DNA of 64,000 nucleotides, from NCBI RefSeq assembly GCF_000317515.1, contig NC_019738.1, positions 4,366,001 through 4,430,000 of the forward strand, read 5' to 3'. A model generated the notes under the pieces. That model was not told the DNA's origin. It saw only the letters and a program-made list of their open reading frames with translations, and searched no databases. The translations under genes and the position numbers were made by a program. Within the stretch, counting starts at the first letter, position 1. Every line of letters begins with the position of its first letter. The stretch comes from Allocoleopsis franciscana PCC 7113 (GTDB lineage Bacteria > Cyanobacteriota > Cyanobacteriia > Cyanobacteriales > Coleofasciculaceae). Below, in pieces: positions 61,109 to 63,869 of this stretch.

Positions 61109-61237
61109 GGAGTTATATAGCCCTTCTCGATTGAGTGTTGTACACTCTGACACTTCTGGAAAATCTCTGTCCACCTCTGCCTAACCCTCTCTTAAGGGGA
61201 GCATCCCAATTTTGCAAGAAGGCAAGAGAACGGGAAG

Positions 61238-61266
61238 TTTATTCGCGATTTTTACTCGCGAATAAA
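61238..61266. repeat. IS hairpin 1 (CGCGATTTTTACTCGCG)
   Basis: TTTATTCGCGA (61238-61248) and TCGCGAATAAA (61256-61266) form an 11-bp stem around a 7-nt loop TTTTTAC. It lies 41 bp inside the left end of the IS, upstream of the transposase frame. Confidence 0.75.
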
Positions 61267-61325
61267 GGCCGACTAGGCGGATGTTGCCCTAACTGCGACA
61301 ATTTAATTAGTTAGGGAGCCTCTTT

Positions 61326-61598
61326 ATGACAATGACACCAGAAGACAAAAAACTTTTAGCCGACCATATCAAGGCGATAGCTAAAATTCTCTATAAAAAT
61401 ACTCCACAAGAGAAAATTGAGACGTTAGAGGGTATTGAAACAGCGGTGCGCGACCAAGTGCTAGAACATGTCAGCCCCCAAATAACCTTTTTTTATCGGA
61501 GAAAAGACGGGAACAGAATCGGGACGCATCCGAACGATAAGAAGTTGTGTGGGTCGGATAAAAATCACTCAAAAACAAGCGTCACGTTTAGGAATTGA
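61326..61598 (+). CDS. ISKra4 family transposase, N-terminal frame
   Basis: The first frame encodes the N-terminal part of the transposase: MTMTPEDKKLLADHIKAIAK, YKNTPQEKIETLEGIETAVR, VSPQITFF. After the T7 run at 61488-61494 the sense frame changes: the second frame reads IGEKTGTESGRIRTIRSCVG, which fits the family better than the first frame. Joining needs a +1 shift, transcript slippage on the T-run, or the copy is inactivated by an indel. A ribosome-binding site-like AGGGAG precedes the ATG. Confidence 0.8.
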   Translation: MTMTPEDKKLLADHIKAIAKILYKNTPQEKIETLEGIETAVRDQVLEHVSPQITFFYRRKDGNRIGTHPNDKKLCGSDKNHSKTSVTFRN

Positions 61599-62403
61599 GC
61601 CGTATCGACGGTTAAGTCCTCTTCTGGAAAAATGCTGTTTATTACTTGCAGCAAATGAATCATTTCAAGATGCAGAGAATGACCTGAAAGTCTTGACCGG
61701 GGTAGAAGTAGGTCACAGCACTCATCATCGCCAAGCCCAGAAAGTAGAGCTATCGCCACCTAATATTAAACAAAAACTGACAGAAGTTTGTCTCGATGGT
61801 GGGAAAGTGCGTTTACGCTCACAGGAAAAAGGTAAACCCGCCTACTGGAAGGAGTATAAAACCGGACGACTACAAGGAATATATTACGGAGCCTTCTTTC
61901 AAGATAATTTTTCTCTAATTAATTGGGTGAACAGCCAAAACCTGGCTCGAACCATTTATTGCTTGGGTGATGGACACGATGGGGTGTGGAACCTATTTGC
62001 ACAAATAGCCGACGACCAGACCCGACAAGAAATTCTTGACTGGTATCATTTGAAAGAGAACCTCTATAAAATTCAGGCATCGAAAAAGTTTTTAGAACAA
62101 ATCGAAGCAGATTTGTGGCAAGGAGTGGTCGAAGAAGCGATTAGTAAACTCCGGAAAACTAACTATGTCGGGGCTACTAACTTTATAAGTTATCTACGTA
62201 AACATAGGCATCGCTTAGTCAATTATATGTACTTTCAAGCCGAACAATTAAGTTCGATTGCTTCGGGAGCTGTAGAGTCTGCGGTCAAACAGATAGACAA
62301 GCGGCTACAAATAGTCGGCGCTCAATGGAAGTCCCAAAATTTACCGCAAATGCTGCAACTGCGGTGCGCTTATCTGAATCGACAGCTTGCTCCAAGCGCT
62401 TAA
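61549..62403 (+). CDS. ISKra4 family transposase, main catalytic frame
   Basis: The frame is open from before 61497 and continues as VGRIKITQKQASRLGIEPYR to the stop at 62403. DDE-type features include an Asp in VCLDGGKVRLRSQEKGKPAY, the Asp pair in TIYCLGDGHDGVWNLFAQIA with WYHLKENLYKI, and the C-terminal glutamate helix IASGAVESAVKQIDKRLQIV. This is the pattern of ISKra4/ISMich2-type enzymes. The start at 61549 (GTG) is only the first start codon in frame; expression probably depends on fusion with the upstream frame. Confidence 0.85.
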   Translation: MGRIKITQKQASRLGIEPYRRLSPLLEKCCLLLAANESFQDAENDLKVLTGVEVGHSTHHRQAQKVELSPPNIKQKLTEVCLDGGKVRLRSQEKGKPAYWKEYKTGRLQGIYYGAFFQDNFSLINWVNSQNLARTIYCLGDGHDGVWNLFAQIADDQTRQEILDWYHLKENLYKIQASKKFLEQIEADLWQGVVEEAISKLRKTNYVGATNFISYLRKHRHRLVNYMYFQAEQLSSIASGAVESAVKQIDKRLQIVGAQWKSQNLPQMLQLRCAYLNRQLAPSA

Positions 62404-62443
62404 AAAACCCAAAAACAGTATGAAAAGAAGCACGCTGCTTTTT

Positions 62444-62464
62444 TTCGCGAGTTACAATCGCGAA
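62444..62464. repeat. IS hairpin 2 (inverted CGCGATTGTAACTCGCG)
   Basis: TTCGCGA (62444-62450) pairs with TCGCGAA (62458-62464) around GTTACAA. Its reverse complement matches hairpins 1 and 3. It sits between the transposase stop and the passenger gene, 19 bp before the passenger's ATG. Confidence 0.7.
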
Positions 62465-62482
62465 TAATTAGGATTTATCTTT

Positions 62483-62893
62483 ATGCCTCGAAAGACTTCC
62501 AAGGATATTGAGCGAGATAAACTCGCTCGATTTGAGCGTATTAAAAAGGCGATAGCAGCGTTAGAAAAACAACAAAGACAAATATTAAAACAGGGTGAGC
62601 TGGCTCCATCCGGGGCTTGGGTAGCGCGTTATCAAGTTCGGCAAAATAATAAGAAATATTGGTACTACAAATTACAAGTGCCGACTCCATACTTCCCATG
62701 CGCGACCTCCGAAGAGTTGAGTAAATACAAGCATCTGGGGAAAGCTGGTACTACTGACCATATAGATGCTGTCATGTCTGTTTTTAGGCGTTCTGTTATC
62801 GATGAGATACAGAAGCTCATCCGTTCCCTAGATGATTGCTTGCTGGATATTACTTCTGGAGCCGAGCAGGAGGAAGAAAAACCGCAGGATTGA
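62483..62893 (+). CDS. IS passenger protein, DUF6788-like
   Basis: The 136-residue protein has a basic N-terminal helix (MPRKTSKDIERDKLARFERI, AIAALEKQQRQILKQGE). A small beta-rich motif GAWVARYQVRQNNKKYWYYK follows, similar by eye to the RYRR/YYYL core of DUF6788 proteins found near transposons. The rest is acidic-helical (FRRSVIDEIQKLIRSLDD) with a Glu-rich tail. It has no transposase motif. It lies between two hairpins of the same type inside the IS, so it may bind them or regulate transposition (inference). Confidence 0.6.
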   Translation: MPRKTSKDIERDKLARFERIKKAIAALEKQQRQILKQGELAPSGAWVARYQVRQNNKKYWYYKLQVPTPYFPCATSEELSKYKHLGKAGTTDHIDAVMSVFRRSVIDEIQKLIRSLDDCLLDITSGAEQEEEKPQD

Positions 62894-62904
62894 ATCTCCC
62901 GAAG

Positions 62905-62929
62905 TATTCGCGATTATTACTCGCGAATA
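62905..62929. repeat. IS hairpin 3 (CGCGATTATTACTCGCG)
   Basis: TATTCGCGA (62905-62913) pairs with TCGCGAATA (62921-62929) around TTATTAC. It lies 39 bp inside the right end of the IS, mirroring hairpin 1, just after the passenger stop codon. Confidence 0.75.
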
Positions 62930-62968
62930 ATGGCTGTCCCTTTATTTTTGCACAATTGGGATGCTCCC

Positions 62969-63869
62969 GACACATGAGCCTTGCGGAAAACAACTAATTA
63001 TCGCCCTAGATAGAACTCAGTGGAAAGAGAATAATATCTTGATGGTGAGTGCGATTTATCAGAAGCGAGCCTTGCCCGTATTTTGGATTTTATTGGATAA
63101 AAAGGGAACCAGTGACCTCAGAGAGCAACAAATCGTTTTGCGACCCGTAATTAAGTTATTTAAAGCCTATAAAATAGTGATTATAGGTGACCGAGAATTT
63201 CATAGTGTCGAACTGGCGTACTGGTTACACAAGCAAAGGGTTAATTTTGTGTTTCGCCAAAAGAAAGACACAACCTTTCGGCAAAATCGACAAAAATTTA
63301 AGTCGCTGTCTCAGGTGGAGATATCTCCTGGGATGAAACAATTTTTAGCTGATATTAACTTGACTCAAAAGAAAGGATTTGGTCGGTTTAATTTAGCGAT
63401 TTATTGGAAGAGAAAATATAAAGGAAAACAACAACAAACCCCTTGGTATCTTTTAACGAATTTACCCGATTGTGAAACGGCTGTCAAAATCTATGGAAAA
63501 CGCTTCGGGATAGAAGCCATGTTTAAAGATTGTAAAACGGGAGGCTATAACCTCGAAGGTTCACAAGCTTCATCCGATAGATTAGTCCGTTTAGTCTTGT
63601 TAATTGCCCTCGCTATGTCTGCTGCGTGGTTGCAGGGTCAACACACCTCAACTGGAGGTCAATCTTTCTATATTTGTCGGCAAAAAGAAACCCACAGAAC
63701 TCGCCGAAGACATAGCAACTTTTGGATAGGTTTATATGGGTACAATTGGATAGCTGCTTTTCATGAGTGTCAGGATTGGGTGGAGGAATTAATCACTTCT
63801 GTTCGCAATAAGCTTCCTTTTTATCAACGGGGGGTGAGGGCGATAACGCTTATACAGAAAGCCTTCTAG
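62969..63869 (+). pseudogene. IS4 family transposase, N-terminus missing
   Basis: After the IS end the frame reads THEPCGKQLIIALDRTQWKE and continues for 300 residues. The DDE residues are in IALDRTQW (first Asp), IIGDREFHSVELAYWLHKQR (second Asp) and YGKRFGIEAMFKDCKTGGYN, the IS4 Y-(2)-R-(3)-E-(6)-K signature. The N-terminal part of a normal IS4 transposase is absent, and the sequence left of the ISKra4-type element is unrelated. The element is therefore truncated. The ATG at 62961 belongs to the ISKra4 terminal repeat and is not a real start. Confidence 0.88.

Follow-up and report, generated by a model that had tools for sequence, protein, structure and literature searches.

A small passenger gene and matched palindromic sites recur in unrelated insertion sequences of Cyanobacteria and may form a module controlling transposition

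Cyanobacterial insertion sequences (ISs) with at least seven types of transposase carry a small passenger gene of one family, accompanied by quasi-palindromic sites that flank the gene and lie at mirrored positions near the IS ends. Judging from these sequence patterns, we consider it probable that the passenger is a DNA-binding protein which acts as a repressor of its own promoter and sits at both ends of its element, probably controlling transposition. IS passenger genes are usually regarded as cargo; the recurrence of this one with so many transposase types and with matched end sites makes it look like part of the transposition machinery or its control instead.

The window, the whole stretch of 64,000 nucleotides of the Allocoleopsis franciscana PCC 7113 genome that was analyzed, contains a complete, ISMich2-like IS of the ISKra4 family with a passenger (61197..62968, +). 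It is bounded by a left (61197..61220, +) and a right (62945..62968, −) terminal inverted repeat, which are 24 nt long and 92% complementary, the GGGAGCATCCC end of the left repeat being identical in relatives. The genome encodes 10 near-identical copies of 1771–1774 bp with GGGAGCATCCC ends, most of the others showing target duplications of 8–9 bp. Unlike these, the window copy has no target-site duplication (61191–61196 CTTAAG; 62969–62976 GACACATG), which suggests a rearrangement on one side; a DDE_Tnp_1 transposase fragment (62961–63869) starts within the right inverted repeat, so that the IS lies inside or against another transposase gene. Its own transposase is encoded by two overlapping frames, ORF1 (61326..61598, +) and ORF2, the DDE part (61549..62403, +), which in most copies are fused by a −1 shift at a run of eight T residues. 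The window copy has a T7 run at this frameshift site (61488..61494, +), and the shift therefore fails to restore its transposase; further indels were observed in two other copies. ORF2 matches UPF0236 weakly in Pfam, and we assign it to the ISKra4-type transposases on the basis of relatives with the same ends and of BLASTP clustering with an ISKra4-annotated transposase. It is 44–57% identical to the transposases of many cyanobacterial elements that lack a passenger, measure about 1.17–1.4 kb and have GGGAGCATC at their ends.

The sequence features of the element are consistent with the ISMich2 group within the ISKra4 family, which is characterized by a p-MULT4-type two-ORF transposase with a −1 frameshift, inverted repeats starting with GGG, and target duplications of 8–9 bp (PMC3942029, Guerillot et al. 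2014). The window IS shares the frameshifted two-ORF transposase, the type of inverted repeat and the length of the duplications; ISMich2 elements, however, are reported as plain ISs with no further genes, whereas the window IS has a conserved passenger gene and three sites (PMC3942029). Extra ORFs (pRiA4_ORF3, recombinases) are reported in ISAzba1/ISKra4 elements, for which cognate end sites are not reported (PMC3942029). The window IS resembles these in carrying an extra gene of undefined role, but its passenger matches no Pfam family and therefore has no pRiA4_ORF3 match.

Three copies of TTCGCGA-N7-TCGCGAA are found in the window IS. The left-end site TTCGCGATTTTTACTCGCGAA (61242..61262, +; core of 17 nt at 61244–61260) lies 5′ of the transposase with its center 55 bp from the left end, an equivalent location being found in relatives; the middle site TTCGCGAGTTACAATCGCGAA (62444..62464, −; core 62446–62462) separates the transposase from the passenger gene (62483..62893, +), and the right-end site TTCGCGATTATTACTCGCGAA (62907..62927, +; core 62909–62925) has its center 52 bp from the right end. 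A search for the core with up to three mismatches gave six strand matches, whereas shuffled sequences averaged 1.03 and never exceeded 4. The preliminary description, which had proposed three hairpins with a common core in an ISKra4 element, two of them set back from the IS ends by about 41 and 39 bp and the third inverted between transposase and passenger, is borne out by these matches and coordinates. Across the whole genome, the site pattern was counted 38 times and its reversed control not once. Of the 38 sites, 30 belong to the 10 IS copies, seven to another IS, and one was assigned to the surroundings of a passenger paralog (48% identical), which is flanked by two such palindromes. A strict scan for TTCGCGA-N7-TCGCGAA in 373 genomes, which is less biased than our generic site definition because the latter was broadened after the first loci had been inspected, placed 59 of 65 matches within six passenger-bearing genomes, with 38 matches coming from A. 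franciscana PCC 7113 itself. An Rfam search gave no family.

The passenger itself, described beforehand as an ORF of 136 residues, is real and conserved: dN/dS values of 0.05–0.36 in most ortholog pairs indicate purifying selection. A profile search detected the family in 98 of the 389 genomes of the order Cyanobacteriales, and it is also found on plasmid records of Nostoc, Tolypothrix, Nodularia, Crinalium, Gloeothece, Fischerella, and Rippkaea, mostly annotated as “hypothetical protein”; the phage records searched contained no homolog. Invariant or nearly invariant positions in the family alignment are R49, Y59, W60, Y61, Y62, L85, and G86. The AlphaFold2 model (mean pLDDT 91), which provides the fold prediction the preliminary description had called for, has a helix (6–36), three strands (46–54, 57–65, and 82–86) and a long helix (91–125), so that a small beta-sheet lies between long helices, an arrangement compatible with a coiled-coil dimer. 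No known DNA-binding fold was recognized, with no Foldseek match at E ≤ 0.001 and VIA-align values of Z ≤ 6.5, level with prefoldins, and this weighs against reading the passenger as a DNA-binding protein. Matches of the whole model or of its sheet to prefoldin, the PhiC31 integrase coiled coil and V-ATPase D were rejected as reflecting coiled coils and common arrangements only; the strand order fits the three-stranded sheet and helix of AP2 and integrase arm-type domains, with no profile or fold match to these. Searches of Pfam with 23 family members found no convincing family, and neither did those of NCBIfam, PHROG, PADLOC, and PDB give a convincing match; the DUF6788-like motif proposed earlier was not recovered, DUF6788 being absent from the families listed at E ≤ 1 for any of the 23 (the first 25 of 26 families, in order of the number of members matched). 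A distant homolog of 192 aa (L210, G129:C11:118010-118339; about 25% identity) lies outside any recognizable IS; TTGACA and TATAGT flank a GGTTAGCGGAGG motif at this locus, which has an inverted copy 3′ of the gene. G385:C1 contains roughly ten passenger copies that have decayed and acquired stop codons, and the sites of these elements are lost or degenerate.

The transposases next to which the passenger is found include two ISKra4 groups (ISKra4-A, which includes the window IS, and a second one), an Nterm_IS4-type, an IS50-like IS4 with Tnp_DNA_bind and Tn5 dimerization domains, a 485-aa DDE, a 371-aa DDE (C371), and DUF6399. At 65 of 76 nonredundant loci, a quasi-palindrome TT[C/A][G/T][C/T][G/T]-N9-inverse lies directly 5′ and/or 3′ of the passenger, with a core typical of the respective clade (TTCGCG, TTCTCG, TTCTCT, or TTAGCG/TTAGTG). 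Passenger-bearing relatives of the window IS (L039, L040, L041, L042, L109, L119, L131, L148, and others) have their sites at the positions seen in the window IS, that is, in the gaps between left inverted repeat and transposase, transposase and passenger, and passenger and right inverted repeat; in some retrieved copies (e.g., L040 and L154) the left end lies beyond the retrieved sequence or is no longer present. The sites were absent from all 28 passenger-less ISKra4 relatives, and the passenger-less IS50-like relatives likewise do not have this site architecture. The suggestion of a distinct IS organization whose passenger recognizes these sites is well supported, if indirectly, by this co-occurrence across at least seven transposase types and by the joint absence in 28 of 28 relatives. 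The predicted association of passenger and hairpin among relatives held in this sense of joint presence. A test of whether core and passenger vary together from one transposase type to another gave no signal above chance (12 of 49, with 11.7 at random), because passengers of different transposase types are too distant from each other; this counts against our preferred reading. A wider distribution of the hairpin, beyond this type of IS, had been named beforehand as a refutation: it was indeed encountered, yet in almost every case alongside a member of the passenger family.

Apart from a few solitary matches, sites without a passenger were confined to a single other IS of the A. franciscana genome, and this passenger-less IS weighs against the DNA-binding reading. 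Its seven copies (L004 1428–3021; L005, L009, L035–L038), unrelated to the window IS, have one TTCGCGAGTGCCAATCGCGAA site each, 73 bp from the left end, which is a possible target of the passenger in trans. Different hairpins (GGGGATACC-N7-GGTATCCCC) near both ends of another passenger-less ISKra4 relative (L082, 1042–2648) were set aside as a separate system. On a plasmid of Tolypothrix PCC 7712, a passenger-bearing ISKra4-type element (L114) has a Mu-transposase-C gene on one side and a TnsA gene on the other and so adjoins Tn7-like genes.

A site at the far end is present in at least some copies of six of the seven transposase types. Among 25 elements for which both IS ends were identified, elements of the same family not being independent of each other, the left and right distances between site and end differed by a mean of 3.9 bp (r = 0.82), compared with 9.5 bp after permutation; family means of left/right distance were 37/37, 45/46, 60/61, 55/50, and 43/47. 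G231 has IS4-type copies with a divergently oriented transposase gene; their left site lies past the 3′ end of this gene, inside a 75-bp terminal repeat exactly as the right site does, which ties the site to the element end and not only to promoters. The left-end site is absent from the C371 type, in which the transposase reaches the left inverted repeat, and from some DUF6399 elements, and this absence weighs against our favored explanation. The mirrored sites lead us to propose that the passenger would occupy both subterminal sites, sitting beside the IS ends, where it would most likely limit or order transposition, both by blocking read-through transcription and by making the ends inaccessible or drawing them into a loop.

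The main rival to such a restraint casts the passenger as a positive accessory factor, whose subterminal binding pairs the ends or brings in the transposase; autoregulation would then be incidental. The mirrored sites within the long terminal repeats of IS4-type, IS50-like and L119 elements, and the existence of end sites even where no promoter requires them, would suit a helper of this kind. Close transposase relatives with neither passenger nor sites are, however, abundant and multicopy, showing that these transposases do not depend on the passenger, and the C371 elements do without a left-end site; we regard a helper role as unlikely.

Restraint of the passenger's own expression is suggested by the middle site. 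A putative −10 box of the passenger promoter, TACAAT (62453..62458, +), lies inside it and reads TATAAT in most relatives, and in the clade of the window IS the spacer of the upstream site is usually gTTATAATCGCG. Of 49 upstream sites, 29 have a TATAAT-like box within or adjoining them, read on the passenger strand; core-keeping shuffles gave 7.1 ± 2.3, and among the downstream sites the box was present at 16 of 62. It is from this overlap that we infer autorepression.

Alternatively, the palindromes could function as hairpins in RNA, serving as terminators, insulators, or mRNA elements, whether bound by the passenger or free-standing. Their arms are conserved, the stems often comprise 9–13 bp and lie at the borders of genes and elements, and at the end sites the variable outer positions pair modestly more than in shuffles within transposase type, an excess that a structural hairpin would also produce and that accordingly counts against a reading as DNA sites. 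This compensatory pairing is weak, confined to the end sites and insufficient for a claim of hairpin structure. An RNA hairpin at the upstream site is made less likely by the −10 box in or beside it, since a transcript starting from this box would omit the left arm. In the window, the sites are not followed by a T run such as terminators have, and a free-standing terminator would not be confined to passenger-bearing relatives. The IS4-type sites retain a T·C mismatch in the arm, and in one IS50-like lineage (G453) the sites are kept at all three positions with central arm positions unpaired (GTTAGCGAACATTGTTACCTAAC and counterparts); both are explained by a duplex operator with two half-sites. 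We therefore hold RNA hairpins to be improbable, and the −10 box, the mismatch and the nonpairing arms equally speak against the earlier proposal that the hairpins act as structures or in strand processing.

A further alternative is that the passenger and its two flanking sites are a mobile cassette, inserted into several IS types by single-strand or site-specific mobility. Its attraction is the recurrence of the site–gene–site unit in at least seven transposase types, but the invariant passenger columns include no HUH/Y1 motif or other nuclease signature, no clear stand-alone multicopy unit was seen outside IS ends, and the left-end sites are unaccounted for, making this the most improbable of the alternatives. 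In REP/RAYT (TnpA-REP) systems, a small gene lies between palindromic repeats. The passenger is similar in its flanking palindromes and different in lacking an HUH/Y1 signature, in the absence of genome-wide dispersal of the sites and in its association with the ends of DDE-type ISs; with no HUH motif in the invariant columns and no Pfam match, REP/RAYT membership was rejected.

The reading that we prefer is that the passenger is a sequence-specific, probably dimeric DNA-binding protein with the quasi-palindrome TTCGCG-N9-CGCGAA as its putative cognate operator, clade variants being TTCTCG, TTCTCT, TTAGCG, and TTAGTG. Direct binding and dimerization, as well as an inhibitory direction of the effect on transposition, are what we infer, the binding from co-occurrence, promoter overlap, and architecture taken together. 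Bound at the site overlapping the −10 box, the protein would repress its own gene and also divergent transposase genes. More tentatively, at somewhat less than even chances, the small DNA-binding protein and its matched end and promoter sites may be a portable, transposase-independent control module that regulates in cis and in trans, and that several unrelated cyanobacterial DDE IS families have acquired separately.

Small IS proteins that bind the ends and repress transposase transcription include IS1 InsA and OrfA of the IS3 family, which are N-terminal parts of their transposases. The passenger, as proposed here, resembles them as a small IS-encoded, end-binding repressor, but it is a separate gene family common to unrelated transposases. 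In eukaryotic transposons, the Harbinger Myb-like protein and En/Spm TnpA are separate element-encoded proteins with subterminal binding sites; the passenger is like them in layout, but they belong to another domain of life and no relationship in sequence was seen. We found no report in the open-access literature of a separate gene family common to unrelated ISs with matched end sites, and rate an IS with a regulatory accessory gene as a known kind and portability between unrelated IS families as the new aspect. If true, a family of cyanobacterial hypothetical proteins would gain a predicted function, as a testable regulator of transposition common to unrelated IS families, and the different ISs of one genome would offer a testable case of cross-talk.
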